Shown piece after piece: positions 12,991 through 46,700 of a stretch of 64,000 nt of DNA; position 1 is the stretch's first letter; the number at the start of each line of letters is the position of its first letter. The notes beneath the pieces are model-generated. The model was not told the origin of the DNA and did no database searches. It saw nothing but the letters and a program-made list of their open reading frames with translations. The translations under genes were made by a program, and so were the position numbers. The DNA lies in contig JADLSH010000369.1 of assembly GCA_016169945.1 (NCBI GenBank), positions 3,906,001-3,970,000 on the forward strand, in the 5' to 3' direction. This DNA comes from Trachythela sp. YZ-2020. Lineage: Eukaryota > Cnidaria > Anthozoa > Malacalcyonacea > Clavulariidae.

Positions 12991-13106
12991 AGGAATACCT
13001 TTGGGATTATTTTCCAATGGCTAGTTTATAAGCTTTTGCGGCCCTAGTACTTGTGCATATATGGTTACGTTAAGTGACTTTGTTACCTCTTATTTTCTTT
13101 TTTCAG

Positions 13107-14117
13107 GAGTTAGCTAACGCAACCACATGGGGAGATTTTCCCGTCGAGGATAGAAAAGTTTTGATACGTCAGGTTTTGCGATCGAGAGCCTCGAGTACTG
13201 TCAAAAAGTACGTTCGCGAGCATCGAAAATACATCAGTTTTCTGGTACGTACCAGGCGGCCCACCACAATACCTTCGGACAAGTTACACATCGCTTCCTA
13301 TTTGGCTTATGTATCACAGACCAAAAATAGTTATAATGCAGTCTCGCAAGCATTTTGTGGAATCAAATGGGTTCATTCGTTACCCCCTACCGACGTGAAA
13401 GGCAATCCAGCCGACACTACTCTGTCGGCGAACATAGTGGAAGCTAGTAGAAGGGCTTTCACAAAACCGAGCACAAAAAAGGAACCAATTTCTACATCGA
13501 CCATAACAAAAGTTTGTCAGCAATTCGCTGGACCGTCATGTACTTTGAAGGGGTTACGGACAGCACTAATATTTTCCTTGGGATTTACAGGATTATTTAG
13601 GGTTAGCGAATTATTGGATATCAAGGCACAGGATATTGGGATCCAAGCTGAACATCTCGAGATTGCGGTTCGAAAATCCAAGACTGACCAATATCGACAA
13701 GGAAATATAGTGTATATAGCAAAAACTAACGGGCCAGCGTGCCCACATGCTTTGCTTTTGCGTTTCTATTCTCTCACAGGTATTCAGCCACGTTCAAACG
13801 AGTCCATTTTTCGTTCGCTGTCATCACTGAAGAAAAGTACATTAAATAAAGCAGACAATAAACCTTTAAGTTATTCTCGATGTCGTGAAATTGTTAAAGA
13901 AACTCTGGCCGCCGTTGGCGAGGATCCAGCTCAGTTTGGTACACATAGTCTGCGATCTGGAGGTGCAACTGCAATTGCAGAATCCATGAAAGGAATACCA
14001 GGAGGCGATAGGCTGCTTAGATTGCAAGGGCGATGGAAGTCGGACACTTCTAGGGATATGTACATTAAAGACTCCATGACTAACAGATTGTCAGTTACAA
14101 AGTCACTTCAGTTGTAA
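13107..14117 (+). CDS. Tyrosine recombinase
   Basis: The frame opens from a TTTCAG acceptor at 13104-13106 (ELANATTWGDFPVEDRKV...) to a stop at 14115, about 336 residues. An N-terminal SAM-like core-binding domain (residues about 20-110, SYNAVSQAFCGIKWVH) precedes the catalytic domain. The catalytic residues are all visible: Arg in TGLFRVSELLDI, His-x-x-Arg in GTHSLRSGGATA, Trp in QGRWKSDTS (in place of the second His), and nucleophilic Tyr in SRDMYIKDS. It would cut and rejoin the circular form at the repeats. The exon to which its 5' end splices is uncertain; it may be fused to Gag or start at a separate ATG. The frame has no breaks. Confidence 0.9.
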   Translation, partial: ELANATTWGDFPVEDRKVLIRQVLRSRASSTVKKYVREHRKYISFLVRTRRPTTIPSDKLHIASYLAYVSQTKNSYNAVSQAFCGIKWVHSLPPTDVKGNPADTTLSANIVEASRRAFTKPSTKKEPISTSTITKVCQQFAGPSCTLKGLRTALIFSLGFTGLFRVSELLDIKAQDIGIQAEHLEIAVRKSKTDQYRQGNIVYIAKTNGPACPHALLLRFYSLTGIQPRSNESIFRSLSSLKKSTLNKADNKPLSYSRCREIVKETLAAVGEDPAQFGTHSLRSGGATAIAESMKGIPGGDRLLRLQGRWKSDTSRDMYIKDSMTNRLSVTKSLQL

Positions 14118-21618: not shown

Positions 21619-24600
21619 TCAAAGTTGAGCGGATAAGTAGAGCACAGCACCATTAGAAGCCGTTGTCATAGACGACAACCAACCTGCTCCTTTTTCCTTC
21701 TCCTCAGATGCGAAAACCTCCTTCAAATTTCCTTTCTCATCAAACACTTGAATAGAGCCATACGTGAAATCTGCGACCCAGATATGATCCCAATAATCAA
21801 CAGCTAATGTGATCGGTGCCCAGAATTGACCTCTACCTTCTCCTGGTTCACCAAACTTCTGCATAATCTGACCATCTGGGCTGAAGATCTTTATACATTC
21901 CACTGCGTTCTCTGCATCAAATCCTCCAGGGGGCGTTGGCAAGGGGAGGTAATTTGAAAACCACAATGAAGATTCGGCAACAATAATCTGACCCTGGCTA
22001 TTGAACTGGATGGAAACAGGATACATCATTTCACCATCCTGCTCATCACCAAATGAGCACTTGAATGAGTCATCTGGGTTGAATAACTGAATACGTCGAT
22101 TGCCTGCATCACATACAGCTATGTTATCGTACAAATCAGCCGTTACACCAAGAGGTGAATTCAACTCTCCATCACCTTTTCCTTCATTGCCAATCTCACG
22201 AAGAAAAGTTCCGTCTGTTTCGAACACGAACAACTTATGGCTGGCAGTGTCCGATACAATGATCCGATTTTCACTATCGATTGTAAAATTCCACGGTTTC
22301 TTCGTGACATTGAGCATATCAAAGGTGTATAACGGATTGAAATCGGCATCAAATACACGCATAACGGCTTCGGTGAGGATATATATGTTGCCAACCAGGT
22401 CAGGTCGCATACATAACGTATTCGAAATCAGTTTCCCCTCCAATTGATCCGTTGGCAATTTCTGAAGCAGGCTTGTACCGGTTGAATAATCAGGCTCACC
22501 CTTAATTTCTAAGGTGCGTGGACTTCCTCGCAGAGAGTTTCCATCGACTTGAACAGCCAGGCGATGTCGACCTGGGATGTAGCTGGCGAAATGCACGGAG
22601 ATTGTGTCATCATCGTGAAGTTGCGGCTTCGCTTGGATCACCGTTTGCTTTGGAGTAAGAACTTTGGCTTGGAACAAATTAAGATCTGGTGGAGTTGGTG
22701 GCCCTCTACGTCGGTTGCTTGGTTTAATGATAACATCAACATCTTTACCAACATCAAACACCTATGCAGCAAAACAAAAATTATTATAACTCAAACTAAA
22801 AAAACGCTAACTGCGAGTTAAGAAAACATTTCTATTTCTCTACGTTTTGACAATATTTTAGTCATCATTACCGTTGTTGCAGTGTATTTTATGAAAACTA
22901 CTAAGTGATTCCCGTGATTTAGTAACTGTTTGTTATGCTTAAAATTCCTGATTCCCATATGGGACTGGGAATCCGTAATCTTCAGATTGATAGCCTGACT
23001 ATCTGCCAGTTGAGTTTATGGATTTAAGCCGTGCCCTTGGGGGTGTGATGTTAGTCTGCCAGTTGGTAATGGATAAAAGGAGAATAATAAGGCGAATAAT
23101 GCGAACAGTCGACGAATAGTGCAATAGTGGACGAACCGCGGTGCACATTTTATGGTATTTACTCGTTTCCATATACCGAACTGAAGTCACGTAATTTTCC
23201 CGATTTTCAATTTCATTTTTCTTGATCAGTTTGGTTAGGGTTAGGTTTAGGGTAAGTATATTACAGTGAGGATGAGTTACAAAGTTATTTTATATCTCTT
23301 CGATCTTGAAAAATGACGTCACGTCAGTATGGAAGATGGAAACAAGTGGCGACCTGTTATACCGGCCCTCACCTCTGGCAATGATACATTGGAGTGTACA
23401 TCGTCACATAAACTGTTGGGGGTAATTTTTCAGGATAACCTCAAATGGAATGAACATATTGCAATGATAACCAGCAAAGCATCAAAACGCCTTCATATCT
23501 TACGTGTTTTACGTCGTGGGGGTATCCCCCCAGAAGACCTTATAACTTTATATTATACACTGGTAAGGCCTATTCTGGAATACTGCTGTGCCGTTTGGCA
23601 TTTTCAACTTCCAAAATACCTATCTGAGGAAGTGGAGAAAATTCAGAAACCTGCTATGAGAATAATCCTACCAGGCTATTCATACTCTGAGGCATTACAG
23701 TTCTTCGACTGTCCGAGGCTCGATATCCGCCGAACAGAACTTTCTAAAAGAGTAATGGAAAATATAGCACCTGGAAACCGTCTATCAAACCATTTACCCG
23801 TAAAGAGAAACCAACAGCACTCGTTGAACCTAAGGAATAATAATTGTTTCACTTCTTTTAAATGTCGAACAGATAGATTTTATAATAGCTTTTTTCCCAC
23901 TATGACTCGTATTTTTAATAATAACTTGTAGGTCTTAATTAGTCTATTACACATATGTCTTAAGTTTGATCTGTAATTTAAGTCTAAAACCTGTGCACAC
24001 ATTGTAATTCATTTTATTATGCGAAGATGTGTATGATATACCTTATAATAATAATAATGAAATAAAATGCTACGGTAGGTTACGATACGTTTGAAGTGGA
24101 AAACGGCCTTTAACGGCCCAGACAGACTGAACGCGATTCTACAACGCAGCGCGATTTTTCGATTTTCACTGACATATAACTTTGATCGTGTTTTATGTTT
24201 TTCAAATATTCAGAAGCGCTATAACAGTTTGAGTTATTTTGTCTGCATATCTTTTAAAATTTCCTTCCATAGACGGTTCTATTTACTTTTAAAAACTGAG
24301 GCCTTAAGGCCCGGACACACCGAACGCGATTCGGCAACGCGACGCGATTTTTCTGAATTTTTGAAGATAAAAAACTGTCCCTGAAAGGAACTTTTCAAAG
24401 CTATGCACACCAGACGAGTCAAAATGTATTATCGTTCAGTAATTTTGAAAAATGTTATACCACCATCAAATCTATTTGCTTCTGAAAACTGAAAAATCGC
24501 GTCGCGTTGCCGAATCGCGTTCGGTGTGTCTGGGCCTTTAGCCTTGTGTATTACTATTAGAAGATGTATATGTTTCGTCATTTTTATGCAATGTTGAAGT

Positions 24601-27600
24601 GTTTTCCTTATTTTACAGCATAGCATATTTAGATTATTCGTAGAATATTCTTTGCGTGATCAAACTCAAACATAGCTCAGTAGGTCACATTTAGTATAAA
24701 CTCGCTGATTTAACTGCACAGACGGTAGTCTGGGTAGATAAGGTATATTTTGCTACGAAATCATGTGAAACAATATCTTACTGACTTTAATTAGCGCCCA
24801 GTTGTGAGGAAATTTTGGCCTTCGTTTTCGACATCTTACAACATTGCATACTTAAACTATTGTAGTATATTCTTTGCGTGACTGAAGTATTGAACTCAAG
24901 CACAGGTCAGTAAGTCACATTCTATAAATAAACTCACTGTCGTTCCTCTCGTGAAACTCTATTTTTCTCTTACAGACAGGTTAGTAGGTTATTTTGCAAC
25001 CATCTATAGGTGTATTGACAAATTAATATAAAGTTATTTATCAAATTATATATCTATCTACCTATCGGTGAGGATATTTTTCTCCTTCCAGCCTTCGACG
25101 CACTGAGTGCAGTTTTAATTTGGCAAACTGCTTTAATACATAGGGTAACATAGCACCAACGAAATGTCTCGTATTTGTGGTATATTCTGCCTATGCAGTT
25201 GTAGAGCATTAACCGCAAATTCGTGTATACATGATGGCAGCACTCCCAGGCACTGATGGCAGTACTACTAGGGACTTTGTACCTCAGTTTGTTAGAGCGC
25301 TGCACTGGAATCGCAGGGCAACAAGTTCGAATCCGGCAAGAGATCCTAAGTTGCATTTTTCGCAACTGCTCCTGTATATAAATGTAATATACATTTATAT
25401 AAACCATAAACAACCAATGTCTCACAATGAAGTCGGAATACCTCAAAATAGGTTTTGGAACGCAAAACTACAATGAATTCAATATGAACAAGCCCCTAAA
25501 AGACGTTATCCACCAATAAACCAATAAACTTCCGAGCCACTAGCCAATGAGCCAACCAAGTCAACTAACAAGCAGACAACGAACGAACCAAACGCTCTCT
25601 TAAAGAGAGAGGCTAATTAGCCACCCCTGCAGTGAATCAATTAATGTGCGAGAAGAAAGACAGGCACACATACAGAAACACGTACAGACAGACATTATAC
25701 AGACAGACATACAGACACATAACCAGCAAGCCAACCTGCAATTTCCAAAAGAGATAAAGAGGCTGTCAGCCAACCATAAATGCGATCCACCCAACAAAAA
25801 CTCCAACCTACGAACTAACGAACCAACAAACCAACAAACAAACCAACCACACAACTAATCAACCAGCTAGGCGACTAATCAACCAAACAATTAGCCAACC
25901 CAACCAACCAACCAACTAATCAACCTAACAACAAATCAATGTACTAATCAACCATCCAACCATGCAAGCAAGCAGATGACCAGCCAGACAACCAACCAGC
26001 TAGCCAGCTAGATACTAACTATCCAACTAGGTAGTTCACTCATACAAAGTATTAAATGAGCAAAATATAGACCAGTTAACCGTTCATTCTGCTGGATAAT
26101 TTGAAAAATGTAAATGTGATGAACATGCCTTGACGGACATTGTCCGACAATTGTACGAAGGAAAATAAAATGGTGATTGGTGTTATATAATGCAAATTGT
26201 ACTTATCCATCAGCATATCATGCTTACTGGAATCGTTTGCTTCAAATGTTGTTATTATATGAACCAAAGCTAGATCTGATGGTAAGTGAATTTTATGCAG
26301 GGAACCATTTTTCGTGTCCAACCTGCCCTGGCCAAAAAAGTTAAGTTACACCACTGGAAACATATCAAACAATATACAGCCAGTTTAATCAGTAAACTAA
26401 AAGGCCAGGAAGCTATATACGTATACGTAGGTGTTGGCAACCCGAATAGACATGATGATCGCTGGTATATTTAGATTCTTTGGGTTGTAACTATTCCTCA
26501 TATTGTTACATTGCTGATTGCCTATTGGGATAATGGTCCAGTAAATCGTAGTACTCGATGATAACCTGCTCTTTTGGTTAAGTCAAACGGAAGGCGAATT
26601 TATATTCAGAAATCTAACCCGGTCGACGAGGTTAAAGGCATATGCACTAAGCCACGAGGGCCATCATTTCCCCACCATAATATTGTAATTCAATCAATCA
26701 TGATGTTTTAGCTCTTACCTTGCCTCTCTCTGCAACCAACTCGAAGTTATCAGCTTGTAAAGTTGGAACAACCAGCTCACCAAGACAAGTCGTTACCAAG
26801 TGATCCACGGAGCTATCTAGAACATCTTCCCCAGCCTCAGACTGCAGAGAAACAGTTGGCGTTGCTTGGTTGTTAGCATCAAGCCAGAATGGATTTCTAC
26901 CACTTGTATCGTTGACGTATCTCACCAAATGATCATACATATTCATTATCTCATCATCATTTCCGTTATCCAGAAGATTTCGCATGAACAATACATAGTT
27001 GCCCATTCTCTTTAAATCTGACTCCAACTGCCCCTCATCTCTCTCGCTTTGCTCAACTTTATCTAACACGAGCTGTTCAAGGCGCGATATCATTTCAGAC
27101 GAACGACCTTCAAAACAAAGAAGTACGTCTTACAAAAGTCTGAAAATCTCATTATTGGATTTTGTTATTTCATCTATATCCATCTACATATTTATACCCA
27201 TATTTGTCAAGTAATTCTGGTAACTACTTGAGAGATTTCAAAGATTTCATTATCTCTTTCAGATATAGTTATACGGCGACCAAAACGAAGGCAGTTTATT
27301 ATAAAATACTAACTGGAACCCCACGGTAGAGCAATTCTTAAACATGTTATTATCTGAACTGATTAGAATTAATCTATATAGATTATTCCACTAGGGGTCT
27401 TATTCAAAAATCCTGAAAGGTTTCAGGCTCTAGCCCGGTCCTGTAAGTTTCTAATGTGAATTATATAAATTGAAAATGGTCAAATATATTATATAAATAA
27501 AAATAAGAGATAAAAACCTTCAATAGTTTGAGTGAACTGTTGAATCAGATACTCTTTTCTTTCATTCAGCTTGGTAGTGATCGTATCAACTGATGCCTTC

Positions 27601-28295
27601 AGCGTTTCTTTCTTTTCCCGACAAGTATGCTGTACTTGTTTCACATGCGCGATATGTTTCTCTGCCTTGGTCATGGCTTCATGAGATCTTTCCCGACACT
27701 GGTCCGCTATATCTTTCAAGTTGGCGACAGAATGCGCGGGTTGGGGGTGGTCGACGACCGTACAATCACGACATATCAATATGTTACAAGTTCGACAATA
27801 AAACTTGCAGACAAGATCATGGTCGAGACACTTCATAGCGGGATGAAACTCTTTTGCAGAGGTCGGGGAGAGAAGCATCTTTAGATCAACGACTTTGTGC
27901 TCTTGATACGGTTTAAGACGATTATGTGCGTCAATACATTTCTGACAAAAGAACTCGTCGCACTCGACACATCGCACGATCGCTTTTAAACCGTCTTCGC
28001 AATTGGAACAGAGCAAGCTTTCATTCTTCGATTTTAATTCGGCAACTTCCAACAAATTCTTAATAAAGAAATTCGTTGGTAATCCTTCGATGCCCGATTC
28101 TGGTATGGCGGTTTCGTCGCGGCATAATGGACACGGGATTGAATCATATTTATTCGTTGTCTTTGTCATTTCGTTCAGACATTCCTTGCAATATGAGTGA
28201 AGACATGTTAATGTCTTCGGTTCTCTGAACAGCTCCAAGCAAAGGGAGCAAGTCAGAAGATCTTCAATCGTAGCAGGTGCTTGACCTTCGGCCAT
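21619..28295 (-). CDS. TRIM-NHL protein (TRIM2/3/71 class)
   Basis: Three exons join cleanly: 28295-27518 (phase 1), 27107-26719 (phase 0) and 22761-21619, giving 769 residues. Exon 1 has a C3HC4 RING (CSLCLELF, CLHSYCKEC, CPLCRDE; residues about 14-60), two B-boxes (CSNCEDGLK...FCQKC and CLDHDLVCKFYC...DC) and the start of a coiled coil; exon 2 continues the helical region. Exon 3 begins with a filamin-type Ig repeat (YIPGRHRLAVQVDGNSLRGS), then six NHL-type beta-propeller repeats such as IGNEGKGDGELNSPLGVTA and VCDAGNRRIQLF. The family are E3 ubiquitin ligases or RNA-binding repressors. I chose the ATG at 28295; two codons upstream there is only a GTG. Intron 2 (22762-26718) is full of repeats. 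The exact paralogue cannot be told. Confidence 0.93.
23062..23140 (+). repeat. Solo fragment of the Mutator-like TIR array
   Basis: GGTAATGGATAAAAGGAGAA followed by GCGAATAATGCGAACAGTCGACGAATAGTGC resembles the left TIR around 7450-7520 (GGCAATTGATAAAAGGAGAATAG, then the GTCGAC array), but is short and diverged. It suggests the array occurs elsewhere in the genome. Confidence 0.6.
23329..24066 (+). mobile_element. 5'-truncated LINE, reverse-transcriptase C-terminus
   Basis: A 200-codon frame (to 23931) starts after the catalytic YADD box and contains HKLLGVIFQDNLKWNEHI and LVRPILEYCCAVWHF, the conserved region after the RT palm, and ends with FYNSFFPTMTRIFN. It is related to, but not the same family as, the LINE at 1000-4960. 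An AT-rich tail ending in an ATAATAATAATGAA stretch follows. It lies inside TRIM-NHL intron 2, opposite to the gene. Confidence 0.85.
24305..24540. mobile_element. MITE with long CpG-rich TIRs
   Basis: TAAGGCCCGGACACACCGAA and onward to about 24355 is repeated inverted at 24485-24540 (GGTGTGTCTGGGCCTTTA). A diverged half copy lies at about 24108-24165 (GGCCCAGACAGACTGAACGC). Non-coding. Confidence 0.85.
25275..25400 (+). mobile_element. tRNA-derived SINE
   Basis: TTGTTAGAGCGCTGCACTGG resembles a pol III box A region and AAGTTCGAATCC a box B. The body GTTGCATTTTTCGCAACTGC follows, with an AT-rich tail. The tRNA-like part does not fold into a full cloverleaf that I can trace, so I call it a SINE, not a tRNA gene. 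Confidence 0.7.
25500..26040 (+). repeat. Degenerate AACC/ACCA simple-sequence tract
   Basis: Variations of CAACCAACTAAT and AGACAGACAT fill about 500 bp, a decayed tetranucleotide microsatellite. Open frames here are artefacts of composition. Confidence 0.8.
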
Positions 28296-28740
28296 CTTGG
28301 CCACAGCATCAACACTGAACTAAAACAATCTATAAAGACTTTTTAAAAATAGTTTAAAGTACTTCTTCCGCATGACTGAAATCCCAAAGTGAATAATAAA
28401 ATAATTAAACGGTTGCTATTGGCAAAAAACTAATAACCTTACTTTTTTGTTATGAATGTTACTGTTAATGTAGTATTTTGAAATAGGGAAGCTTAACTAG
28501 ACCAAAAATTCAACAGATAAATAATAAATGTATAAAATTATTCGTGAATTTGTGCACATTTTCTGTTCATATGCCGCCTCTTGTCTTACTCGGTAATAAC
28601 AGAAGTGTAATTAGTATCTAATTCCCAGTAATAAATAAAGAATACACCTACGCAGGGAGAGGTATGACTTCCCATAAGACTGAAAATGTCAAGACAAATA
28701 AATCATGTTCAGACAATTATTATGATAAATCAAAGACCTA
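28296..28740. promoter_or_regulatory. 5' flank of the TRIM-NHL gene
   Basis: Upstream of the TRIM-NHL start codon. AT-rich; I see no TATA box I would trust and no repeat. Promoter position is inferred only from location. Confidence 0.35.
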
Positions 28741-35434: not shown

Positions 35435-35676
35435 TTTCTTAGTAGTATAGAGCGGGGCTTAATGGACCCCGTTTTATGCGTAAAATTTAACGAGTTATCC
35501 CTGCATAATTCATGAGTTAATTATGTTAATGATCTGAATTAATTAATTCATTTCCGAGGATAATCCGAACAAATCCGAGTATGAGTTATGCATATTAATG
35601 AGCATTTATAATTAGATTCATTCCGACGACGTTAAAACAACGAGAGGTTTCCGACAGTTCGCCATTTTGTTCCAAG

Positions 35677-36045
35677 ATGGCAGAACAGCTAATTCTGGAT
35701 GTTTTTAAGGAAAATAATGTAGAATTAACGAAGGATACTTTACGGTTTTATATAAAACTGCTTTTAGAAAAGCATGAACATACATATAACTCCATGATAT
35801 GTAGTATTGTAAGAGATAATGTGTTTGAAAATTTATGTCAAACATATGAAGAGACTAAGCCTTTAAATTCTGGTAGAATTATGGCTTACTTGGCTTTAGT
35901 TTACAAAGTGAGCGATTTTTGTGACACTGAAACAGTGCGAGAAGCCGTTCGAATATGTGTAGACGATTTAAAACAATTTGATTTAGCGAGCTATGAAATT
36001 AAACTGTCTTGGTTTCAACGCTTAATTTCATGGTTGGTGGGTTAG
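35677..36045 (+). CDS. Bcl-2-like protein, cassette copy 1
   Basis: An intact 122-residue frame. The middle contains NSGRIMAYLALVYKV, matching the BH1 core of Bcl-2 proteins (usually NWGR). The end contains WFQRLISWLVG, in the place of the BH2 tryptophan motif. The rest is alpha-helical and the size is that of a minimal Bcl-2 fold without a long C-terminal membrane anchor. Bcl-2 homologues are carried by several animal DNA viruses, where they block host cell death; the same role here is inference. No intron. It is the first gene inside the left TIR. Similarity is motif-level only, hence the moderate confidence. Confidence 0.65.
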   Translation: MAEQLILDVFKENNVELTKDTLRFYIKLLLEKHEHTYNSMICSIVRDNVFENLCQTYEETKPLNSGRIMAYLALVYKVSDFCDTETVREAVRICVDDLKQFDLASYEIKLSWFQRLISWLVG

Positions 36046-36418
36046 TGTTACAGCTTAACCGCGTGTAATTTGAATATCACTAATTGGAATTGAATAGCGA
36101 AAGTCATTAAGAAGTCATTAACTGTTGTACATGGGTGAACACATTGTACTTTAACGACATTGCCCAAGCCATTAATTTTCCTCATTGACTTTAAAGTGCT
36201 TAAGCAGGACAGAAAGACTGAACACATTGTACTTTAACGACAGTGCCCAAACTTGATTTTGCTGAGCTTGTACAAAAAGGTTGTTAACGACCGGACTAGC
36301 CTGATCTTGTAGTTCTCTACACGGCGAAGTAGGGAGCACACATAGATAGCACAAATTGAAAACTTTCGCTTTGGAGCAACGACGTAAAAATCGTCGAAGT
36401 TGTACTTTAAAAAAAAAT

Positions 36419-36808
36419 ATGTTGCAAGATGATATTTACATTGTTGACGAAAGTCGATTATGTCGGAACCCCCTCAAATTGTTGGAAGCAATTTACGCTG
36501 ATACAGTTGCAAATGAAATTACGCAGTTGTGCCAGGAAAACGAATGTAATATAGACGAAGGATGGCAGACGTACGGTATAGAAGCTATAGAACGTGTTAA
36601 TAGCAAGCATTTGGTTTGGGACTCGTTTGTCGAGGCTGCAAGAATACTGAAAATCAATTGCCACGAAAACGTCCTTGAGCGTTTAAGAGAATTAAAAAAG
36701 GTACCAGAACACATGTTCGTTTACGACTTGGAAGAATCGTATCACTGTAGAAAGAGCCACCAATTACAATGCATCCTAAATTATTTATCTTTTTGGAGGG
36801 AAAAGTGA
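36419..36808 (+). CDS. Unrecognised 129-residue protein, cassette copy 1
   Basis: An intact frame from ATG 36419 to a stop at 36806, identical in protein to the copy at 39082-39471. It is acidic at the start (MLQDDIYIVDESRLC), then helical with repeated leucines (LLEAIYADTVANEI, LERLRELKKVPEHMFVYDLE), and ends LNYLSFWREK. Helical content and the FVEAARILK and LSFWREK segments could suit another small helical-bundle or death-fold protein, but I do not recognise a family. It follows the Bcl-2-like gene by 373 bp in the same direction in all copies. Confidence 0.6.
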   Translation: MLQDDIYIVDESRLCRNPLKLLEAIYADTVANEITQLCQENECNIDEGWQTYGIEAIERVNSKHLVWDSFVEAARILKINCHENVLERLRELKKVPEHMFVYDLEESYHCRKSHQLQCILNYLSFWREK

Positions 36809-37080
36809 ACAAGTCAAGGCTATCGAATGCTCCAATCCGTGTTATTATAATGATAAAGAGGTCAAGGCGATAAACTTTTAATTCCACCTTTGGGATAACT
36901 TTACTTTACATTAAAAGTTATACGTAAAGCACACTGTAACTAAACATTCAGTTATATTAACCGTGTGCATGCGCAATTGAAAATAGAGAAAATATACGTC
37001 TTGTGTACAATTTTATTAAAATATTATTACACTCCGCATAGAGTATATTATATCTGTTTATATAAGGTAGTTGAGGAAGT

Positions 37081-37662
37081 CTAGTCTGAATCAGTATTTT
37101 CGCCCTCTTCAATATAAGCATTGTCTTTTAAAAGACGTTTCAGAAGAAACTTTCTTTTATCAACGGCTGCTTCCAAAGCCTCATCATGATCAAAGTCGTC
37201 ACTGTTTATAAACACATCTCTCGTGTTCATTACTTTTTTATGTACATGATTCCTCCTAAGCTGTCTCATCCACAATAGACGTTCCAGATAAACACTTTCG
37301 AGCTCTTTTTGTAGTTTAGGTAATATCAACGCGTACGCTTGCTTGTTGGAAGTTTCGTCATCAAGACCGTTTTCGATAAGATTCTGTTTTATTTCTTCGT
37401 ACTCGCTGGCAAATCTTTGTTTTGCTTCCTCTATTAATGGTTTCCAAGGATCACTTTCATATTCTAATTCAGATCCTGATTCATTTCCATCTACCTCAGA
37501 ATTTTGTGCATTATCACTATTTGACGCTTCGTCATCTGACTCCATGGGTACGGAATTGTGATCTGTATCCGACTCTTCCTCTCGGAATGGGCAGTATTCG
37601 TTTTCGTGTCTGCGCAAATTAAAGCGACGATTAAAAGATTTACCACAAAACTTGCAGCTCAT
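37081..37662 (-). CDS. Zinc-finger/acidic protein, cassette copy 1
   Basis: An intact 193-residue frame starting at ATG 37662. It opens with one C2HC-type zinc finger (CKFCGKSFNRRFNLRRHENE then C), continues with a strongly acidic Ser/Asp/Glu/Asn stretch (residues about 28-75), then a helical, charged half with YLERLLWMRQLRRNHVHKKV and DKRKFLLKRLLKDN. It converges on the 129-residue gene, with 272 bp between stops. The architecture suggests a DNA-binding regulator; function unknown. I believe related proteins are common in cnidarian genomes but cannot confirm that here. Confidence 0.65.
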   Translation of the reverse strand: MSCKFCGKSFNRRFNLRRHENEYCPFREEESDTDHNSVPMESDDEASNSDNAQNSEVDGNESGSELEYESDPWKPLIEEAKQRFASEYEEIKQNLIENGLDDETSNKQAYALILPKLQKELESVYLERLLWMRQLRRNHVHKKVMNTRDVFINSDDFDHDEALEAAVDKRKFLLKRLLKDNAYIEEGENTDSD

Positions 37663-37702
37663 CACTCTAGCACTGTTAGTAGCAAATGAGGGATTTTAAG
37701 AA

Positions 37703-37855
37703 AATTATTGCCTCATGAGCACTTGCTCTGTTGTATAGCTCATGAATGAGCGTTGACGTAGACAAGCTCACGACGACCACTCATAATTACTCATACCCCA
37801 TGAGCACTCTGAAATGCTCATTTTCGTTGAGCAGAGATAAAAGATGGCCCGAGCA
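37703..37855. promoter_or_regulatory. TGAGCA/TGCTCA-rich spacer upstream of the zinc-finger gene
   Basis: Starting 41 bp upstream of the zinc-finger start codon, TGAGC or its complement GCTCA occurs about eight times in 150 bp, often as inverted pairs (GCTCATGAATGAGC; TGAGCACTTGCTC). The block recurs in every cassette copy (40345-40490, 41530-41680) and once more, partly, at 41058-41140. A self-regulatory operator is possible (inference). Confidence 0.55.
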
Positions 37856-38081
37856 AGACGAAAACATGACAGATGTCCCGTAACTCATTCAGACTGGCTA
37901 CCAGAACTGTAAGAATTTTCATGCCCTATCTACTTTGCCAACAATGCTCCAAACGACTGCTGGCTGCTGGAAGCCGAGTTGAAAAGTACGAAGATATAGT
38001 ATTTTCAACACTTTGGCGCGGTAAGGATAAGTCGTTGCGCTTGGTGTGATTAATTTATCGTTGAGTGAAACATTCACTTGA

Positions 38082-38216
38082 CTAAACAGCGACTGCAGGA
38101 ATAGATTCTGGTCCTGTCTTATTCTTTATGGGCCTAACCCAGGCATATTTACTAAAGCAGTCAATACAAACAAGTAAAAATCTATAATTATCATTCTGTG
38201 TCCTAAGCGATTGAAA
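38082..38216 (-). pseudogene. Polinton-type integrase core fragment, left arm
   Basis: Minus-strand translation gives LLVCIDCFSKYAWVRPIKNK, the second catalytic-Asp region of retroviral-type (rve) integrases as found in Polintons, followed by TGPESIP and then a stop at 38082. The segment with the first catalytic Asp is cut off at 38216. Only about 44 codons remain; it is not functional. Confidence 0.75.
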
Positions 38217-38377
38217 GTTAATTATGTTAATGATCTGAATTAATTAATTCATTTCCGAGGATAATCCGAACAATTCCGAGTATGAGTTATGCATATTAAT
38301 GAGCATTTATAATTAGATTCATTCCGACGACGTTAAAACAACGAGAGGTTTCCGACAGTTCGCCATTTTGTTCCAAG

Positions 38378-38746
38378 ATGGCAGAACAGCTAATTCTGGA
38401 TGTTTTTAAGGAAAATAATGTAGAATTAACGCAGGATACTTTACGGTTTTATATAAAACTGCTTTTAGAAAAGCATGAACATACATATAACTCCATGATA
38501 TGTAGTATTGTAAGAGATAATGTGTTTGAAAATTTATGTCAAACATATGAAGAGACTAAGCCTTTAAATTCTGGTAGAATTATGGCTTACTTGGCTTTAG
38601 TTTACAAAGTGAGCGATTTTTGTGACACTGAAACAGTGCGAGAAGCCGTTCGAATATGTGTAGACGATTTAAAACAATTTGATTTAGCGAGCTATGAAAT
38701 TAAACTGTCTTGGTTTCAACGCCTAATTTCATGGTTGGTGGGTTAG
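38378..38746 (+). CDS. Bcl-2-like protein, cassette copy 2
   Basis: 122 residues, differing from copy 1 by one residue (Gln for Lys at position 19) and otherwise carrying the same BH1-like and BH2-like motifs. Frame intact. This second direct copy begins at 38216 without the outer 75 bp of the element terminus. Confidence 0.62.
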   Translation: MAEQLILDVFKENNVELTQDTLRFYIKLLLEKHEHTYNSMICSIVRDNVFENLCQTYEETKPLNSGRIMAYLALVYKVSDFCDTETVREAVRICVDDLKQFDLASYEIKLSWFQRLISWLVG

Positions 38747-39081
38747 TGTTACAGCTTAACCGCGTGTAATTTGAATATCACTAATTGGAATTGAATAGCG
38801 AAAGTCATTAAGAAGTCATTAACTGTTGTACATGGGTGAACACATTGTACTTTAACGACATTGCCATTAATTTTCCTCATTGACTTTAAAGTGCTTAAGC
38901 AGGACAGAAAGACTGAACACATTGTACTTTAACGACAGTGCCCAAACTTGATTTTGCTGAGCTTGTACAAGGTTGTTAACGACCGGACTAGCCTGATCTT
39001 GTAGTTCTCTACACGGCGAAGTATGGAGCACACATAGATAGCACAAATTGAAAACTTTCGCTTTGGAGCAACGACGTAAAT

Positions 39082-39471
39082 ATGTTGCAAGATGATATTT
39101 ACATTGTTGACGAAAGTCGATTATGTCGGAACCCCCTCAAATTGTTGGAAGCAATTTACGCTGATACAGTTGCAAATGAAATTACGCAGTTGTGCCAGGA
39201 AAACGAATGTAATATAGACGAAGGATGGCAGACGTACGGTATAGAAGCTATAGAACGTGTTAATAGCAAGCATTTGGTTTGGGACTCGTTTGTCGAGGCT
39301 GCAAGAATACTGAAAATCAATTGCCACGAAAACGTCCTTGAGCGTTTAAGAGAATTAAAAAAGGTACCAGAACACATGTTCGTTTACGACTTGGAAGAAT
39401 CGTATCACTGTAGAAAGAGCCACCAATTACAATGCATCCTAAATTATTTATCTTTTTGGAGGGAAAAGTGA
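39082..39471 (+). CDS. Unrecognised 129-residue protein, cassette copy 2
   Basis: Same protein as 36419-36808. The region just upstream has lost about 29 bp relative to copy 1, between short A-rich repeats, without touching the reading frame. Confidence 0.58.
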   Translation: MLQDDIYIVDESRLCRNPLKLLEAIYADTVANEITQLCQENECNIDEGWQTYGIEAIERVNSKHLVWDSFVEAARILKINCHENVLERLRELKKVPEHMFVYDLEESYHCRKSHQLQCILNYLSFWREK

Positions 39472-39725
39472 ACAAGTCAAGGCTATCGAATGCTCCAATC
39501 CGTGTTATTATAATGATAAAGAGGTCAAGGCGATAAACTTTTAATTCCACCTTTGGGATAACTTTACTTTACATTAAAAGTTATACGTAAAGCACACTGT
39601 AACTAAACATTCAGTTATATTAAATTGAAAATAGAGAAAATATACGTCTTGTGTACAATTTTATTAAAATATTATTACACTCATAGAGTATATTATATCT
39701 GTTTATATAAGGTAGTTGAGGAAGT

Positions 39726-40291
39726 CTAGTCTGAATCAGTATTTTCCATATAAGCATTGTCTTTTAAAAGACGTTTCAGAAGAAACTTTCTTTTATCAAC
39801 GGCTGCTTCCAAAGCCTCATCATGATCAAAGTCGTCACTGTTTATAAACACATCTCTCGTGTTCATTACTTTTTTATGTACATGATTCCTCCTAAGCTGT
39901 CTCATCCACAATAGACGTTCCAGATAAACACTTTCGAGCTCTTTTTGTAGTTTAGGTAATATCAACGCGTACGCTTGCTTGTTGGAAGTTTCGTCATCAA
40001 GACCGTTTTCGATAAGATTCTGTTTTCGTACTCGCTGGCATATCTTTGTTTTGCTTCCTCTATTAATGGTTTCCAAGGATCACTTTCATCTTCTAATTCA
40101 GATCCTGATTCATTTCCATCTACCTCAGAATTTTGTGCATTATCACTATTTGACGCTTCGTCATCTGACTCCATGGGTACGGAATTGTGATCTGTATCCG
40201 ACTCTTCCTCTCGGAATGGGCAGTATTCGTTTTCGTGTCTGCGCAAATTAAAGCGACGATTAAAAGATTTACCACAAAACTTGCAGCTCAT
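39726..40291 (-). pseudogene. Zinc-finger/acidic protein, cassette copy 2, frameshifted
   Basis: The same gene as 37081-37662, but a 7-bp deletion near 40025 (ATTTCTT in copy 1, missing here) shifts the frame in the middle. A further small deletion near 39745 removes residues close to the end. The zinc finger and acidic stretch remain open in one frame, the helical half in another. Confidence 0.75.
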
Positions 40292-40497
40292 CACTCTAGC
40301 ACTGTTAGTAGCAAATGAGGGATTTTAAGAAAATTATTGCCTCATGAGCACTTGCTCTGTTGTATAGCTCATGAATGAGCGTTGACGTAGACAAGCTCAC
40401 GACGACCACTCATAATTACTCATACCCCATGAGCACTCTGAAATGCTCATTTTCGTTGAGCAGAGATAAAAGATGGCCCGAGCAAGACGAAAACATG

Positions 40498-41153
40498 ATC
40501 CATTAATTGACTTAATTATACGAAAATACAATCTCTCAAGATGCGACTATAGCGAAATTAACTTGCGGATATAAGTAATGTTCTATTTAATACTTGTAAT
40601 GTTGCATACATCTCTCACCAATAACTTCTATATTATTCTTCTATACATTATTTTCGTTCAGCTTGGGCCACTACTCATATATGCTCAACGTAAATGAACA
40701 TTGTAAGCCCAGTATTTTTATGAGTTCTGTATGAATAAGTTCAATAACATATCGTGAGCGTAGTTCAGCCGTTCTCAATCGATCCCTTCCGAGCGAGCCA
40801 AAAAGCAGTTAATGTAATGTCAACAGGGTTGATTGGCAATACAAAGCAACACCGCAAAGCGAAAATCATTTTACGACCAAGAGTTGAGAACAGGCCTAGT
40901 TTCAGGTTAATCTATTTGGTGTCTTCTAAAAAGACCGCTTGGTTTTTGAGCCTATACTATCCGTAGCAGACATGAATATCCTTTCTGTCTAATCTAGTAT
41001 GCGGCTAAGTGGGGTGTTGAACAGACATAAGGACCAAGTCACTCAAAGTCAGCTCATAGGGTATGAGTAATTATGAGTGGTTGTCGTGAGCTTGTCTACG
41101 TCAATGCTCATTCATGAGCTATACAGACCAAGTACTCATGATTAAGTATAGAT
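40498..41153. other. Central part of the Polinton-like element
   Basis: Sequence not present in the cassettes except for a partial inverted TGAGCA block at 41058-41140. A 70-codon frame at 40754-40966 is not recognised. It may be what is left of the element's original interior. Confidence 0.45.
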
Positions 41154-41321
41154 GATCAATTTGAAGCTGATTTGGCCGATTTTCAATCGCTTAGGACACA
41201 GAATGATAATTATAGATTTTTACTTGTTTGTATTGACTGCTTTAGTAAATATGCCTGGGTTAGGCCCATAAAGAAGAAGGACCAGGATGAATCCCAGTCG
41301 CTGTTTAGTCTCGCTGTTTAG
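41154..41321 (+). pseudogene. Polinton-type integrase core fragment, right arm
   Basis: Plus-strand translation starts DQFEADLADFQS (first catalytic Asp region) and continues to the same CIDCFSKYAWV motif as in the left arm (second catalytic Asp). It then diverges and stops at 41319. It extends farther in the N-terminal direction than the left fragment. The third acidic residue and the rest of the enzyme are absent. Confidence 0.75.
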
Positions 41322-41714
41322 TCATCAACGATTTCACTCATTCATAAAGCGCAACTGACTTTATCGCCACCTTACCGCGCATGTGAGTAAATACTATATC
41401 TTCGTACTTTTCAGCAGCCAGCAGTCGTTTGGAGCATTGTTGGCAAAGTAGATAGGGCATGAAAATTCTTACAGTTCTGGTAGCCAGTCTGAATGAGTTA
41501 CGGGACATCTGTCATGTTTTCGTCTTGCTCGGGCCATCTTTTATCTCTGCTCAACGAAAATGAGCATTTCAGAGTGCTCATGGGGTATGAGTAATTATGA
41601 GTGGTCGTCGTGAGCTTGTCTACGTCAACGCTCATTCATGAGCTATACAACAGAGCAAGTGCTCATGAGGCAATAATTTTCTTAAAATCCTCATTTGCTA
41701 CTAACAGTGCTAGA

Positions 41715-42268
41715 GTGATGAGCTGCAAGTTTTGTGGTAAATCTTTAATCGTCGCTTTAATTTGCGCAGACACGAAAACGAATACTGCCCATTCCGAGAG
41801 GAAGAGTCGGATACAGATCACAATTCCGTACCCATGGAGTCAGATGACGAAGCGTCAAATAGTGATAATGCACAAAATTCTGAGGTAGATGGAAATGAAT
41901 CAGGATCTGAATTAGAAGATGAAAGTGATCCTGAAACCATTAATAGAGGAAGCAAAACAAAGATATGCCAGCGAGTACGAAGAAATAAAACAGAATCTTA
42001 TCGAAAACGGTCTTGATGACGAAACTTGATATTACCTAAACTACAAAAAGAGCTCGAAAGTGTTTATCTGGAACGTCTATTGTGGATGAGACAGCTTAGG
42101 AGGAATCATGTACATAAAAAAGTAATGAACACGAGAGATGTGTTTATAAACAGTGACGACTTTGATCATGATGAGGCTTTGGAAGCAGCCGTTGATAAAG
42201 AAAGTTTCTTCTGAAACGTCTTTTAAAAGACAATGCTTATATTGAAGAAAATACTGATTCAGACTAGA
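41715..42268 (+). pseudogene. Zinc-finger/acidic protein, cassette copy 3, broken
   Basis: Recognisable start (41718), acidic stretch and helical half, but a one-base deletion near 41748, a small deletion near 41935 and a 22-bp deletion near 42025 (between TT repeats) break the frame repeatedly. Confidence 0.75.
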
Positions 42269-42486
42269 CTTCCTCAACTACCTTATATAAACAGATATAA
42301 TATACGTAATAATATTTTAATAAAATTGTACACAAGACGTATATTTTCTCTATTTTCATATAACTGAATGTTTAGTTACAGTAACTTTTAATGTAAAGTA
42401 AAGTTATCCCAAAGGTGGAATTAAAAGTTTATCGTTATCATTATAATAACAAAAGATAAATGATGCATTGTAATTGGTGGCTCTTT

Positions 42487-42757
42487 CTACAGTGATACGA
42501 TTCTTCCAAGTCGTAAACGAACATGTGTTCTTTTAATTTCGTGGCAATTGATTTTCAGTATTCTTGCAGCCTCGACAAACGAGTCCCAAACCAAATGCTT
42601 GCTATTAACACGTTCTATAGCTTCTATACCGTACGTCTGCCATCCTTCGTCTATATTACATTCGTTTTCCTGTATCAGCGTAAATTGCTTCCAACAATTT
42701 GAGGGGTTCCGACATAATCGACTTTCGTCAACAATGTAAATATCATCTTGCAACATA
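42487..42757 (-). pseudogene. Unrecognised 129-residue protein, cassette copy 3, broken
   Basis: Starts like the other copies (MLQDDIYIVDESRLC at 42757) but has lost an internal stretch (after IYADT-like codons, near 42675) and the segment before the C-terminal tail, near 42530. No intact product. Confidence 0.7.
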
Positions 42758-43089
42758 TTTTTTTTAAAGTACAACTTCCACGATTTTTACGTCGTTGCTC
42801 CAAAGCGAACGTTTTCAATTTATCTATGTGTGCTAGAGAACTACAAGATCAGGCTAGTCCGGTCGTTAACAACCTTTTGTACAAGCTCAGCAAAATCAAG
42901 TTTGGGCACTGTCGTTAAAGTACAATGTGTTCAGTCTTTCTGTCCTGCTTAAGCACTTTAAAGTCAATGAGGAAAATTAATGGCTTGGGCAATGTCGTTA
43001 AAGTACAATGTGTTCACCCATGTACAACAGTTAATGACTTCTTAATGACTTTCGCTATTCAATTCCAATTAGTGATATTCAAATTACAC

Positions 43090-43458
43090 GCGGTTAAGCT
43101 GTAACACTAACCCACCAACCATGAAATTAAGCGTTGAAACCAAGACAGTTTAATTTCATAGCTCGCTAAATCAAATTGTTTTAAATCGTCTACACATATT
43201 CGAACGGCTTCTCGCACTGTTTCAGTGTCACAAAATCGCTCACTTTGTAAACTAAAGCCAAGTTAATTCTACCAGAATTTAAAGGTCATATGTTTGACAT
43301 AAATTTTCAAACACATTATCTCTTACAATACTACATATCATGGAGTTATATGTATGTTCATGCTTTTCTAAAAGCAGTTTTATATAAAACCGTAAAGTAT
43401 CCTGCGTTAATTCTACATTATTTTCCTTAAAAACATCCAGAATTAGCTGTTCTGCCAT
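43090..43458 (-). pseudogene. Bcl-2-like protein, cassette copy 3, broken
   Basis: Starts at the equivalent ATG (43458) with the same first residues. Short deletions near 43290-43262, around the BH1-like segment, shift the frame. The sequence matching the C-terminal end is still recognisable near 43100. Confidence 0.7.
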
Positions 43459-43707
43459 CTTGGAACAAAATGGCGAACTGTCGGAAACCTCTCGTTGTTT
43501 TAACGTCGTCGGAATGAATCTAATTATAAATGCTCATTAATATGCATAACTCATACTCGGAATTGTTCGGATTATCCTCGGAAATGAATTAATTATAAAC
43601 TCATTAATATTCAGATCATTAACATAAATAACTCATGAATTATGCAGGGATAACTCGTTAAATTTTACGCATAAAACTGGGTCCATTAGGCCCCGCTCCA
43701 TACTACT

Positions 43708-46700
43708 TTTCTTTCTTTTTAAGATTCTTCAACCGCTTCAATTCCTGTTTCTTTTGTTCTTTTTCCTACACAACGTTTTAACAGAATATGATTTGAGTAA
43801 CAGAATTGAAACAGTTGGAACTAGATGATACGAACAGCTGGACTAAAGTACAGTATATAAAAATAGACAAACTGTACATATACTGGAAGGCTATATCATT
43901 AATGTTAAACTGTTCTCCCTAGATACAGAAAGGTACAGAAAGGGCCATCCCTAATCAGTCCAGTGTTACTGCGGGAGGAATCCGGAGTAGCCGGAGAAAA
44001 CTTGCATGCAGTCTTTGGATCCTAAATGGACGCTCTTTTCTCGCAGCGACTAAGCTGATTGGAAATTTTAATAAAAAGACTGCACATTGAACGTGCACCA
44101 CCGTGGCACAAAATACATCTATTTGGCATCACACTGTATACCTTCAACTTTCGTTCATTGCGTTCCTGCCTTTTGTCTATTCTTTTGTTGTCCTTTCGTC
44201 GAAGAGAACCGGCAACATTTCTTGGGTAGCTTTTTAACTAAAATATTGGGCAGATATATCAATTATAAAATCATTCAGTGTAATCACTCCTTTAAGAGAA
44301 TTATTATTCTTTTACAACTCTTTTACAGTAGATAATATATAGGTATGTCAGTCTACAATGTATCGTTTAGTTTGTTAGCCCAATTGTCTTTCACTACATG
44401 CTTATTATCTGAAACAAAAGCACGCAATCAACAGTAGTCGAGATATCATTTGAGCAGACTTCTCATTTTCACGTTTTCTGTTTACAATGTAGGAGTATCG
44501 TTGGGGTCATAAATATCCCCCCAAAAACAATTGTGCGTTTTATTAGACCAACACGAAACTTAGCAGTCTTATAGTTTTCAAGAGGTGTCTAAAATGATGG
44601 AGTATACCAAAGTCAGCTAATTGCTACTTTTAGACCTCCTCGTAGTGTTGTTTTGCACATATTTAGTGTATTTTTGAAAACAAAACAAGTATATTTCAAA
44701 ACGTTACTTGTGCTGCATCGGGTTCCTCGTATCTAAAATTATGTTTTCTTTCAAATTCTTCCTGTTGTTCCAGTTCACCTTCTTCCTATAAGAATACAAA
44801 AACATGATTTGCTTTCAATATGTTTGACAGTACAAATTAACCTTTATATGAAAAATATAACAGTACATTATATTAAAATACTCAGTGGTTTCTGTGATTT
44901 TTGATAACCAAACACGCACACTCAAAATAGTGTAAATGAATGGCGTACTAAATTAAAAACTGTAGAAAGTAATATATGATCACGTTTATAAATTATATCT
45001 GTAGACCGTACCTGATCAAAATCCGCAACAATTTCGTTATATGTCCGAATCCTAAACGTGAATTGTAATATATACACATGTGATATAAATATTCGTTAGA
45101 AAACTCACGGTAAACGAACTTTTAAGAAACGTGAAAAGTTATTATATAAGTACTGTACATTCATGAAGTATATAATTCTACTGAACCTTCAATTCCAATT
45201 TCGTTTGATAAAAATATACTGGCATTAAAATATACTATAAGATGTACAAGAGCTGTAAGACTAAATTTATTTCATGCACCGACGTATCATACCAAACATT
45301 AGTAAATCTTAAACCTCTTGTGTATCTGTAAATATTATCATGGTGAGGCGAAAGTTGAATAGTGATTGAATCGTTTCAACAGTCAGATTTCTGGGAGCAT
45401 TAGGTGGCTGTAGAAACAACCACTTGTATTTTCTTCTCATGCAGAATTTGCTTTGCTGTGAGTAGACCGTCTGCAACGCAGGTTACTATAAAAACACCTT
45501 AAGAACATTTCCATCTAAGGATGATCCAAAATAGCTAACTTACTGAAGAGAATCTTTATCGATGTACTGTCTTTGTAAAATGAAATTTCTTAGAAATTTC
45601 TCTTTGTCGTCAAGATTGGGATCACTCCAAAGTTGCATTAACGGTTCCTTAACATGGATTAAAATATCATAAATACCAATCCGCCTTGTGACGTCATGAA
45701 GTCGATTAACCTGCGAATCAAGCGCCACCTGGCGGGTAAAGGCCCTATGTCTAGGCTGCATAAATACTACCTGAGCACAGTCATTATTCTTATAAGACAA
45801 AACAAAGCAGTCTTTCTACATTATCATTAATAGAATTACTTTATATCAAACATCACGCAACTGTATATATAATTAAGAAATAGGGTTGGCAACCTCATTC
45901 CCAGGCTAGAGCTGGCTCCAAAATAACGTATAGCTGGAAATGAAAACTGGGGAGAGATTATTACCTCAATGTTGGGCAAATATTTCAAACAAATAGAAAA
46001 GAAAACGAAACAAACCAGTTCTTTCTTGTCTTTCTCAGCTAAATTCCTTTCTTGCAACCAATCAGCGTAGTTCTTATCTTCAATTTCCTGAAAGCCAACG
46101 CGATATATGTTTGGACCAAAAAATATCAGCACAAAAACTTTATGAATTTCTTATCATTTATATTTTTGAATTGTATAATTCTTAGCGCTGTTAAGTATAA
46201 AAATGTGGCACCTACATGCAATCAAACACTTACAAAGCTTACTACTGCGTATTAAGGTCTTATTTAAATTATGCCATATCAAACTACAGTTAACTATAAT
46301 ATAATAATAATATTCAATGGATGAATCAATGGATGTACTGTACATGTACAGAATACAATATACCCCTGCATGTCGTGAAAATTTCATATACTGATAAAAT
46401 GTAATATGATTTTATAATTATGTATGAAATTGCCTTTCTTACGTGAAACCCTTCTAATTCCATACATGCATATATCTTTTTTAGTAATTTGATTATCCTA
46501 TACTTTCACGTGAAACCTGCCCATTTTCACGTGAAACCTGCCTTTTACCCGTACATGGAAGCTCTACATTCCAAAATATATCAAATATACGTAACAGTAC
46601 AGTTCAAATTCCACATTGTCAAATAATTTTGAATGGTGAAAATATCACGCGAAATTACCGTACAGTACCTTTTCTTGCTTCGATTTCTTCCGTTTTGTTA

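Follow-up and report, generated by a model that had tools for sequence, protein, structure and literature searches.

A 64,000-nucleotide stretch of the genome of the anthozoan Trachythela sp. YZ-2020 (assembly GCA_016169945.1, contig JADLSH010000369.1, positions 3,906,001 to 3,970,000; hereafter the window) raises the question of what kind of element occupies its positions 35441-43707, where a cassette of three genes, here called g1, g2 and g3, is repeated between inverted ends. We think it likely that this element belongs to a non-autonomous, foldback-shaped and helper-dependent family which derives from a Polinton/Maverick-type element, and that its Bcl-2-like gene g1 was inherited from the terminal repeat of that parent.

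The element is an 8.3-kb insertion and both of its ends start with AGTAGTAT, as checked on the sequence. The left end reads AGTAGTATAGAGCGGGG and the right end, on the reverse strand, reads AGTAGTATGGAGCGGGG, while the six bases directly outside the element are TTTCTT on the left and on the right alike. The terminal 99 bp are 96% complementary between the ends, and the arms contain stretches of 361 nt and 310 nt that are 100% complementary, far above chance. Inverted ends that start with AG and 6-bp duplications are traits of Polintons/Mavericks. The AGT termini and 6-bp flanking repeats, which the initial annotation had read from this locus, were thus confirmed. A host gene cluster or a segmental duplication was ruled out as the identity of the element, since the borders are base-exact and come with target duplications.

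The described cassette, with a Bcl-2-like gene, a gene of 129 residues and a convergent zinc-finger gene, is indeed present three times, twice in direct and once in inverted orientation (35677-37662, 38378-40291 and, on the opposite strand, 41718-43458). All three frames are open in the first copy, g1 and g2 in the second and none in the third. The cassettes lie in units of ~2.78 kb (35441-38215), 2.28 kb (38216-40498) and 2.30 kb (41409-43707). The arm length of 2.6-2.8 kb given earlier therefore fits the first unit and not the other two, which are shortened by deletions; the second begins some 75 bases into the terminus. Compared with the first cassette we counted 7 substitutions in the second and 10 in the third, while the 26 arms of 13 other elements have 20-33. 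The third cassette also has 24 gaps, the longest of 47 bp, which may come from decay or from consensus error. No polymerase match was found within the element, and of entire polymerase, integrase and capsid genes it holds none, only scraps, so it does not qualify as an autonomous Polinton. The two integrase-core fragments noted earlier are real: they measure 109 bp and 134 bp and were assigned through a longer relative (locus L023 on C118), whose integrase gene they match at 100% and 99%. In addition, we found a third scrap, from a putative capsid gene (38014-38110, minus strand).

We searched the genome (578 Mb, 396 contigs) for the 99-bp end. Out of 147 first-look candidates 40 were scored, and all of them matched at 98-100%. 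Twenty other loci were fetched beside the window, 18 of which have both ends within the fetched stretch, and AGTAGTAT was found at both ends of these 18 copies as well as of the window element. Exact 6-bp duplications flank 15 of the 18 (16 of 19 with the window element); the count rises to 18 of 19 if an extra AGT is assumed in one end of L023 and of L028, and the sequence of the duplication differs from locus to locus. Copies with the same terminus, which had been suggested as a check, are therefore spread over the genome. In L023 and L028 one end has AGTAGTAGT and the other AGTAGT, and the duplication is exact only when the extra triplet is counted as part of the element. Fourteen of the 18 two-ended copies are 5.1-6.4 kb in size, L015, L021, L023 and L026 being longer. 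Two g1 copies are present in 18 of the 20 other loci, and three, one of them truncated, in L021 and L025. L017 and L028 have no g2, and L013 has it in a single arm only. When g2 was used as the query, 45 of 58 clusters (matches up to 12 kb apart joined, built from 108 of 150 matches) held an inverted pair, and all 45 pairs started on the plus and ended on the minus strand, thus pointing inward; one cluster of 17 kb is probably two elements joined. The initial annotation had described the cassette as triplicated. This is correct for the window copy, while the norm of the family is two g1 genes per element, so the triplication is peculiar to the window copy and one of several irregular forms of a real family.

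Judging by predicted genes, this genome has longer coding relatives with ends of the same kind, and these may be incomplete or inactive. One of them is L023, which spans 9,584 bp and has ends identical over 786 bp, with g1 inside this terminal repeat, to which g2 and g3 do not belong. Its integrase is a 360-aa open frame with an rve domain (E-value 1.2e-10) and a chromodomain (1e-9, both Pfam); rve integrase is thus represented by the two scraps in the window and by this open frame in an element with the same ends. L023 also has an adenovirus-type protease (4.8e-6), a GRF zinc-finger gene and a 443-aa protein which we named putative capsid protein from its position beside the protease. The latter had no family in Pfam, PHROGs or NCBIfam at an E-value of 0.1 and no convincing chain in the PDB (best E-value 0.07), and the NCBIfam search gave no match for g1 and four L023 proteins. 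A 297-aa frame of L023, with no Pfam match, is taken for the end of a polymerase, as at the DNA level it shares 76% identity with the sequence after a polymerase-like piece in a second relative, C267. A Pfam-positive family B polymerase of the same genome is 34% identical to this piece (5e-23), and the search for such genes in the genome gave 783 first-look candidates, 76 of them scored, and 209 matches. The putative capsid gene of C267 matches that of L023 at 99%, and g1 is present in its right end, the one end that was fetched. The third relative, C198, has the capsid gene at 84% and the frame orfA at 99%, about 3.6 kb away, and its one fetched end carries AGTAGTAATGAGCGGGG with a g1 of 67% amino acid identity.

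These relatives, of which L023 shares both ends and C267 and C198 one, support the proposal that the small elements are non-autonomous, and the AGTAGTAT ends with 6-bp duplications support their Polinton-type origin. Since the longer relatives already hold g1 in their end, it is not cargo that the small element picked up; on the evidence of these sequences g1 comes down from the terminal repeat of the longer parent lineage.

Structure prediction, also suggested as a check, supported a Bcl-2-type fold for g1. All 50 PDB matches listed by Foldseek, and all 50 listed by a second structural aligner, were Bcl-2 family proteins or complexes, and the absence of other proteins from two lists of 50 is not in itself evidence. 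Among the first 10 matches to viral models, 6 carry names of Bcl-2-type proteins (two adenovirus E1B small T proteins, v-bcl2, BALF1, a poxvirus apoptosis inhibitor and an F1L homologue); 3 are gammaherpesvirus open reading frames with uninformative names and 1 is unnamed. The motif N-x-G-R, as in BH1, is invariant (N64, G66 and R67) in all 9 close sequences, a set that counts g1 and two near-identical sequences, and the more distant P0007, P0009 and P0010 lack its N. The ratio of nonsynonymous to synonymous rates (dN/dS) of g1 against C198 is 0.29-0.33, i.e. the gene is conserved between element lineages. By analogy, g1 would bind BH3 helices and block apoptosis, and the cassette genes may act on the host. 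Of the other two genes, g2 matched one PHROGs family of unknown function (6.6e-4), and its structure model, mostly helical, was too poor to be used (mean predicted local distance difference test score, pLDDT, of 57.4). The zinc finger of g3 is just under the Pfam cut-off (23.4 of 25.2 bits). PHROGs gave nothing better than 0.085 for g1 and g3. Genes of the g2 and g3 type are also present at other Polinton-like loci of the genome.

Among the compact loci examined, only the window copy has the integrase and putative capsid scraps, with none found in the 19 others. Since these scraps match L023 at 99-100%, a small and a longer element have exchanged DNA recently. Other pieces of a longer relative are held by L013 and L025. 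Both of these are hybrids in which one end is of the compact type and the other carries orfA as in L023, and L025 also has short polymerase and GRF pieces. Within an element the two arms differ by a median of 0.10% substitutions (16 elements), as against 0.89% between elements (78 pairs of 13). Two further lines were abandoned. Loop orientation was rejected as evidence of flipping, because the arms are mirror images. Microhomology at arm deletions (mean shared length 1.5 vs 0.75 for random placement, 41 deletions of at least 3 bp) was dropped, since it is confounded by homopolymers and likely base-calling errors.

We propose that the family kept the AGTAGTAT ends of its parent, with the interior replaced by mirrored arms that carry g1, g2 and g3, and that a longer relative would supply polymerase and integrase in trans. 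Copying would be protein-primed and start at the AGT ends, where the triplet may slip. Slippage of triplets at primed ends is a trait of adenovirus-type replication, and the variable AGT number fits it. The arms may be kept alike by copying one end from the other during linear, end-primed replication, and a snap-back or template switch during replication could have turned an ordinary element into a foldback and also made the triple copy in the window. Like viral Bcl-2 proteins, g1 would most likely put off the death of a cell while the parent replicates in it, and the small elements, which may profit from it or just carry it, would inherit it along with the ends.

Several observations weigh against this account. 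No element has been seen to move, and L016 lacks the 6-bp target duplication. A full-length relative between the same arms, which the initial annotation had proposed to look for, was found in part: the longer relatives have integrase, protease, polymerase-like and putative capsid genes, but most of the polymerase is missing from L023, in C267 its region is broken up into several frames, and the scan of four C267 pieces gave no match to any polymerase model in Pfam. The arms of L009, L015 and L028 are 0.5-1.0% apart, about as far as different elements. Among the small copies g2 and g3 are without clear constraint (crude ratios of 0.77 and 1.03), and the crude ratio of 0.59 for g1 comes from only 11 changes. 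As for the fold of g1, the listed matches have Foldseek E-values of 0.098-0.60 (PDB) and 0.054-3.8 (viral models); as the aligner itself warns, helical bundles may reach higher scores by chance. The match of g1 to Pfam PF00452 is below the cut-off (17 of 31.4 bits), this family was found at an E-value of 0.1 or lower in 2 of the 10 members of the g1 alignment, g1 included, and a sequence search of the PDB with the g1 profile found no Bcl-2 chain. With such sequence scores, and with the middling structural scores that helical bundles give by chance, g1 might be an unrelated small helical bundle. We consider this improbable, since the PDB lists are filled by the Bcl-2 family, the viral list is led by Bcl-2-type proteins and N-x-G-R is invariant in the close sequences.

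An assembly artefact from tangled haplotypes or chimeric reads finds support in the arms, where we observed 65 gaps and 22 substitutions between arms in 10 of the 16 elements compared. Single bases make up 53 of these gaps, 29 of which fall in homopolymers of 3 or more, and several gaps occur at identical positions across elements. According to one study, inverted duplicates lower nanopore base-call quality (PMC7229812). The gaps thus have the look of long-read consensus error, which is likely inside the arms, and therefore the counts of broken g2 and g3 are likely upper bounds. Such errors could account for the frame breaks but not for the elements, with 6-bp duplications of a different sequence each at 18 of 19 loci. 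The artefact test of the initial annotation thus left the elements standing and the arms with likely consensus errors, and we regard an artefact as the origin of the elements as very improbable. Much more credible, at slightly less than an even chance, is that the genes are idle in the small elements and kept through their position in or near ends that must be copied. The near-neutral ratios of g2 and g3, together with their stops, and the place of g1 inside the 786-bp terminal repeat of L023 argue for this; whole g2 and g3 frames nevertheless persist in many copies though they lie outside that repeat, and some breaks are probably sequencing errors, so decay is perhaps overestimated. The small elements might instead be viral satellites, packaged by the capsid of the longer relative and spread between cells, with survival genes as selected cargo in double dose. 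Each element has two g1 copies, g1 is open more often (35 of 45) than g2 (17 of 39) and g3 (17 of 43) and is less variable (3.0 distinct changes per 100 bp vs 13.3 and 9.3), and a relative has capsid genes, putative ones with an inferred name. Yet packaging is a supposition, and g1 is kept in the longer relatives too, a possible source of its constancy. The low variation includes synonymous sites (4 distinct changes), so that homogenised ends fit as much as selection, and viral_contigs gave no related locus (0 relatives each for g1, the putative capsid protein and g3). We therefore find a satellite rather unlikely. The same holds, with equal reserve, for its extended form, a palindromic endogenous satellite of an animal adenovirus-like element that would parasitise the polymerase, integrase and perhaps capsid of the longer relative and pay with a double or triple dose of the survival gene, the same foldback plan being used in other lineages of this genome (orfA with a GRF zinc finger; a g2-like gene with a zinc finger).

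The proposed descent from a Polinton-type parent can be compared with known systems. Non-autonomous and foldback elements and viral Bcl-2 genes are known kinds. Like non-autonomous DNA transposons and foldback elements, this family has the ends of a parent, a lost interior, long inverted arms, many copies and presumed movement in trans; unlike them it keeps whole genes in the arms, one of them from the terminal repeat of the parent. With viral Bcl-2 proteins, including adenovirus E1B-19K, g1 shares the predicted fold, small size and N-x-G-R motif, but it lies in the ends of integrating elements, two copies in each, and its sequence similarity is marginal. In symmetric (SYREC) adenovirus recombinants a mirrored molecule that depends on a helper has the same viral end on either side. 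These arose in laboratory virus stock and have host DNA inside, while here we see a genomic family with retained accessory genes. Starrett et al. 2021 reportedly discuss accessory genes. Polintons/Mavericks and adintoviruses are the groups treated in passages of PMC6431247 and PMC11071296. AG-starting ends and 6-bp duplications are traits of these groups that our elements share, and the longer relatives also resemble them in the rve-chromodomain integrase, polymerase-like region, adenovirus-type protease and putative capsid genes. A passage of the latter source defines Adintoviridae by a polymerase with an OTU-like domain and a recognisable hexon (PMC11071296). In contrast, the window element has 8.3 kb, no entire polymerase, integrase or capsid gene, and mirrored accessory genes. 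The giant Gypsy elements of planarians called Burro have BCL2-like and BIR motifs and are therefore transposable elements with a Bcl-2-type domain, and the same passages contain no such motifs for Polintons (PMC6431247). In Burro the domain is within a retrotransposon polyprotein, here it is a separate gene in inverted ends. Our literature search, whose coverage was incomplete so that absence from print is not claimed, found no Bcl-2-type gene in Polinton ends and no mirrored Polinton derivatives with accessory genes. One genome thus links things usually found apart: a Polinton lineage with a Bcl-2-type terminal-repeat gene, a large family of short mirrored elements that share its ends, and DNA exchanged between the two in recent times. 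This brings helper dependence, the copying of arms from end to end and the value that a mobile element draws from a survival gene within reach of routine sequencing and binding assays. Should the small elements be satellites, animals would have a counterpart of the helper-dependent satellites of viruses.

Table 1. Features of the element and its flanks (positions in the window).
Feature	Position	Strand	Remarks
Left target-site duplication TTTCTT	35435..35440	.	identical to 43708-43713
Left terminus, AGTAGTAT..., 99 bp	35441..35539	+	98-100% genomic matches, 40 scored of 147 candidates
g1 copy 1, Bcl-2-like, 122 aa, open	35677..36045	+	N-x-G-R at residues 64-67
g2 copy 1, 129 aa, predicted mostly helical (poor model), open	36419..36808	+	
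g3 copy 1, 193 aa, one C2H2-type zinc finger and long tail, convergent, open	37081..37662	-	
Scrap of putative capsid gene, 97 bp	38014..38110	-	100% identical to L023
Scrap of rve integrase gene, 109 bp	38108..38216	-	100% identical to L023; 3-bp overlap with capsid scrap
Fusion point	38216..38240	.	integrase scrap joins terminus cut at ~75th base
g1 copy 2, open	38378..38746	+	
g2 copy 2, open	39082..39471	+	
g3 copy 2, frameshifted	39726..40291	-	
Central spacer	40499..41051	.	between arms in many other compact copies, either orientation; no match in L023
Second scrap of rve integrase gene, 134 bp	41146..41279	+	99% identical to L023
g3 copy 3, broken	41718..42267	+	
g2 copy 3	42459..42756	-	several deletions break the frame
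g1 copy 3, broken	43110..43458	-	
Right terminus	43609..43707	-	96% complementary to left
Right target-site duplication TTTCTT	43708..43713	.	

Other mirrored elements were seen in the same genome. L046 and L047 (C106:4290300-4292300 and 4295900-4297500) represent a second foldback family with arms of ~1.48 kb that are 98.3% alike. These arms carry orfA (92% amino acid identity to orfA of L023) and a GRF zinc-finger gene, with G-rich repeats on the outer side. The genome search with orfA gave 458 first-look candidates, 40 of which were scored, and 9 inverted pairs less than 10 kb apart among the matches listed. A third mirrored element, L040 (C44:847000-856999), has relatives of g2 (39% amino acid identity) and g3 (42%), and a second g2 relative lies nearby in inverted order (C44:857122-857370).

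Elsewhere in the window, open frames at 1112-4817 look by eye like a non-LTR (long terminal repeat) retrotransposon with endonuclease and reverse transcriptase, and they are flanked by what appear to be pieces of one transposase gene (17-598 and 5018-5656). A 347-aa frame at 13074-14117 resembles, by eye, a tyrosine recombinase. On the minus strand, frames at 21619-28319 are TRIM-NHL-like by eye, with RING and B-box at 27489-28319 and NHL repeats at 21619-22761, which suggests an animal host.

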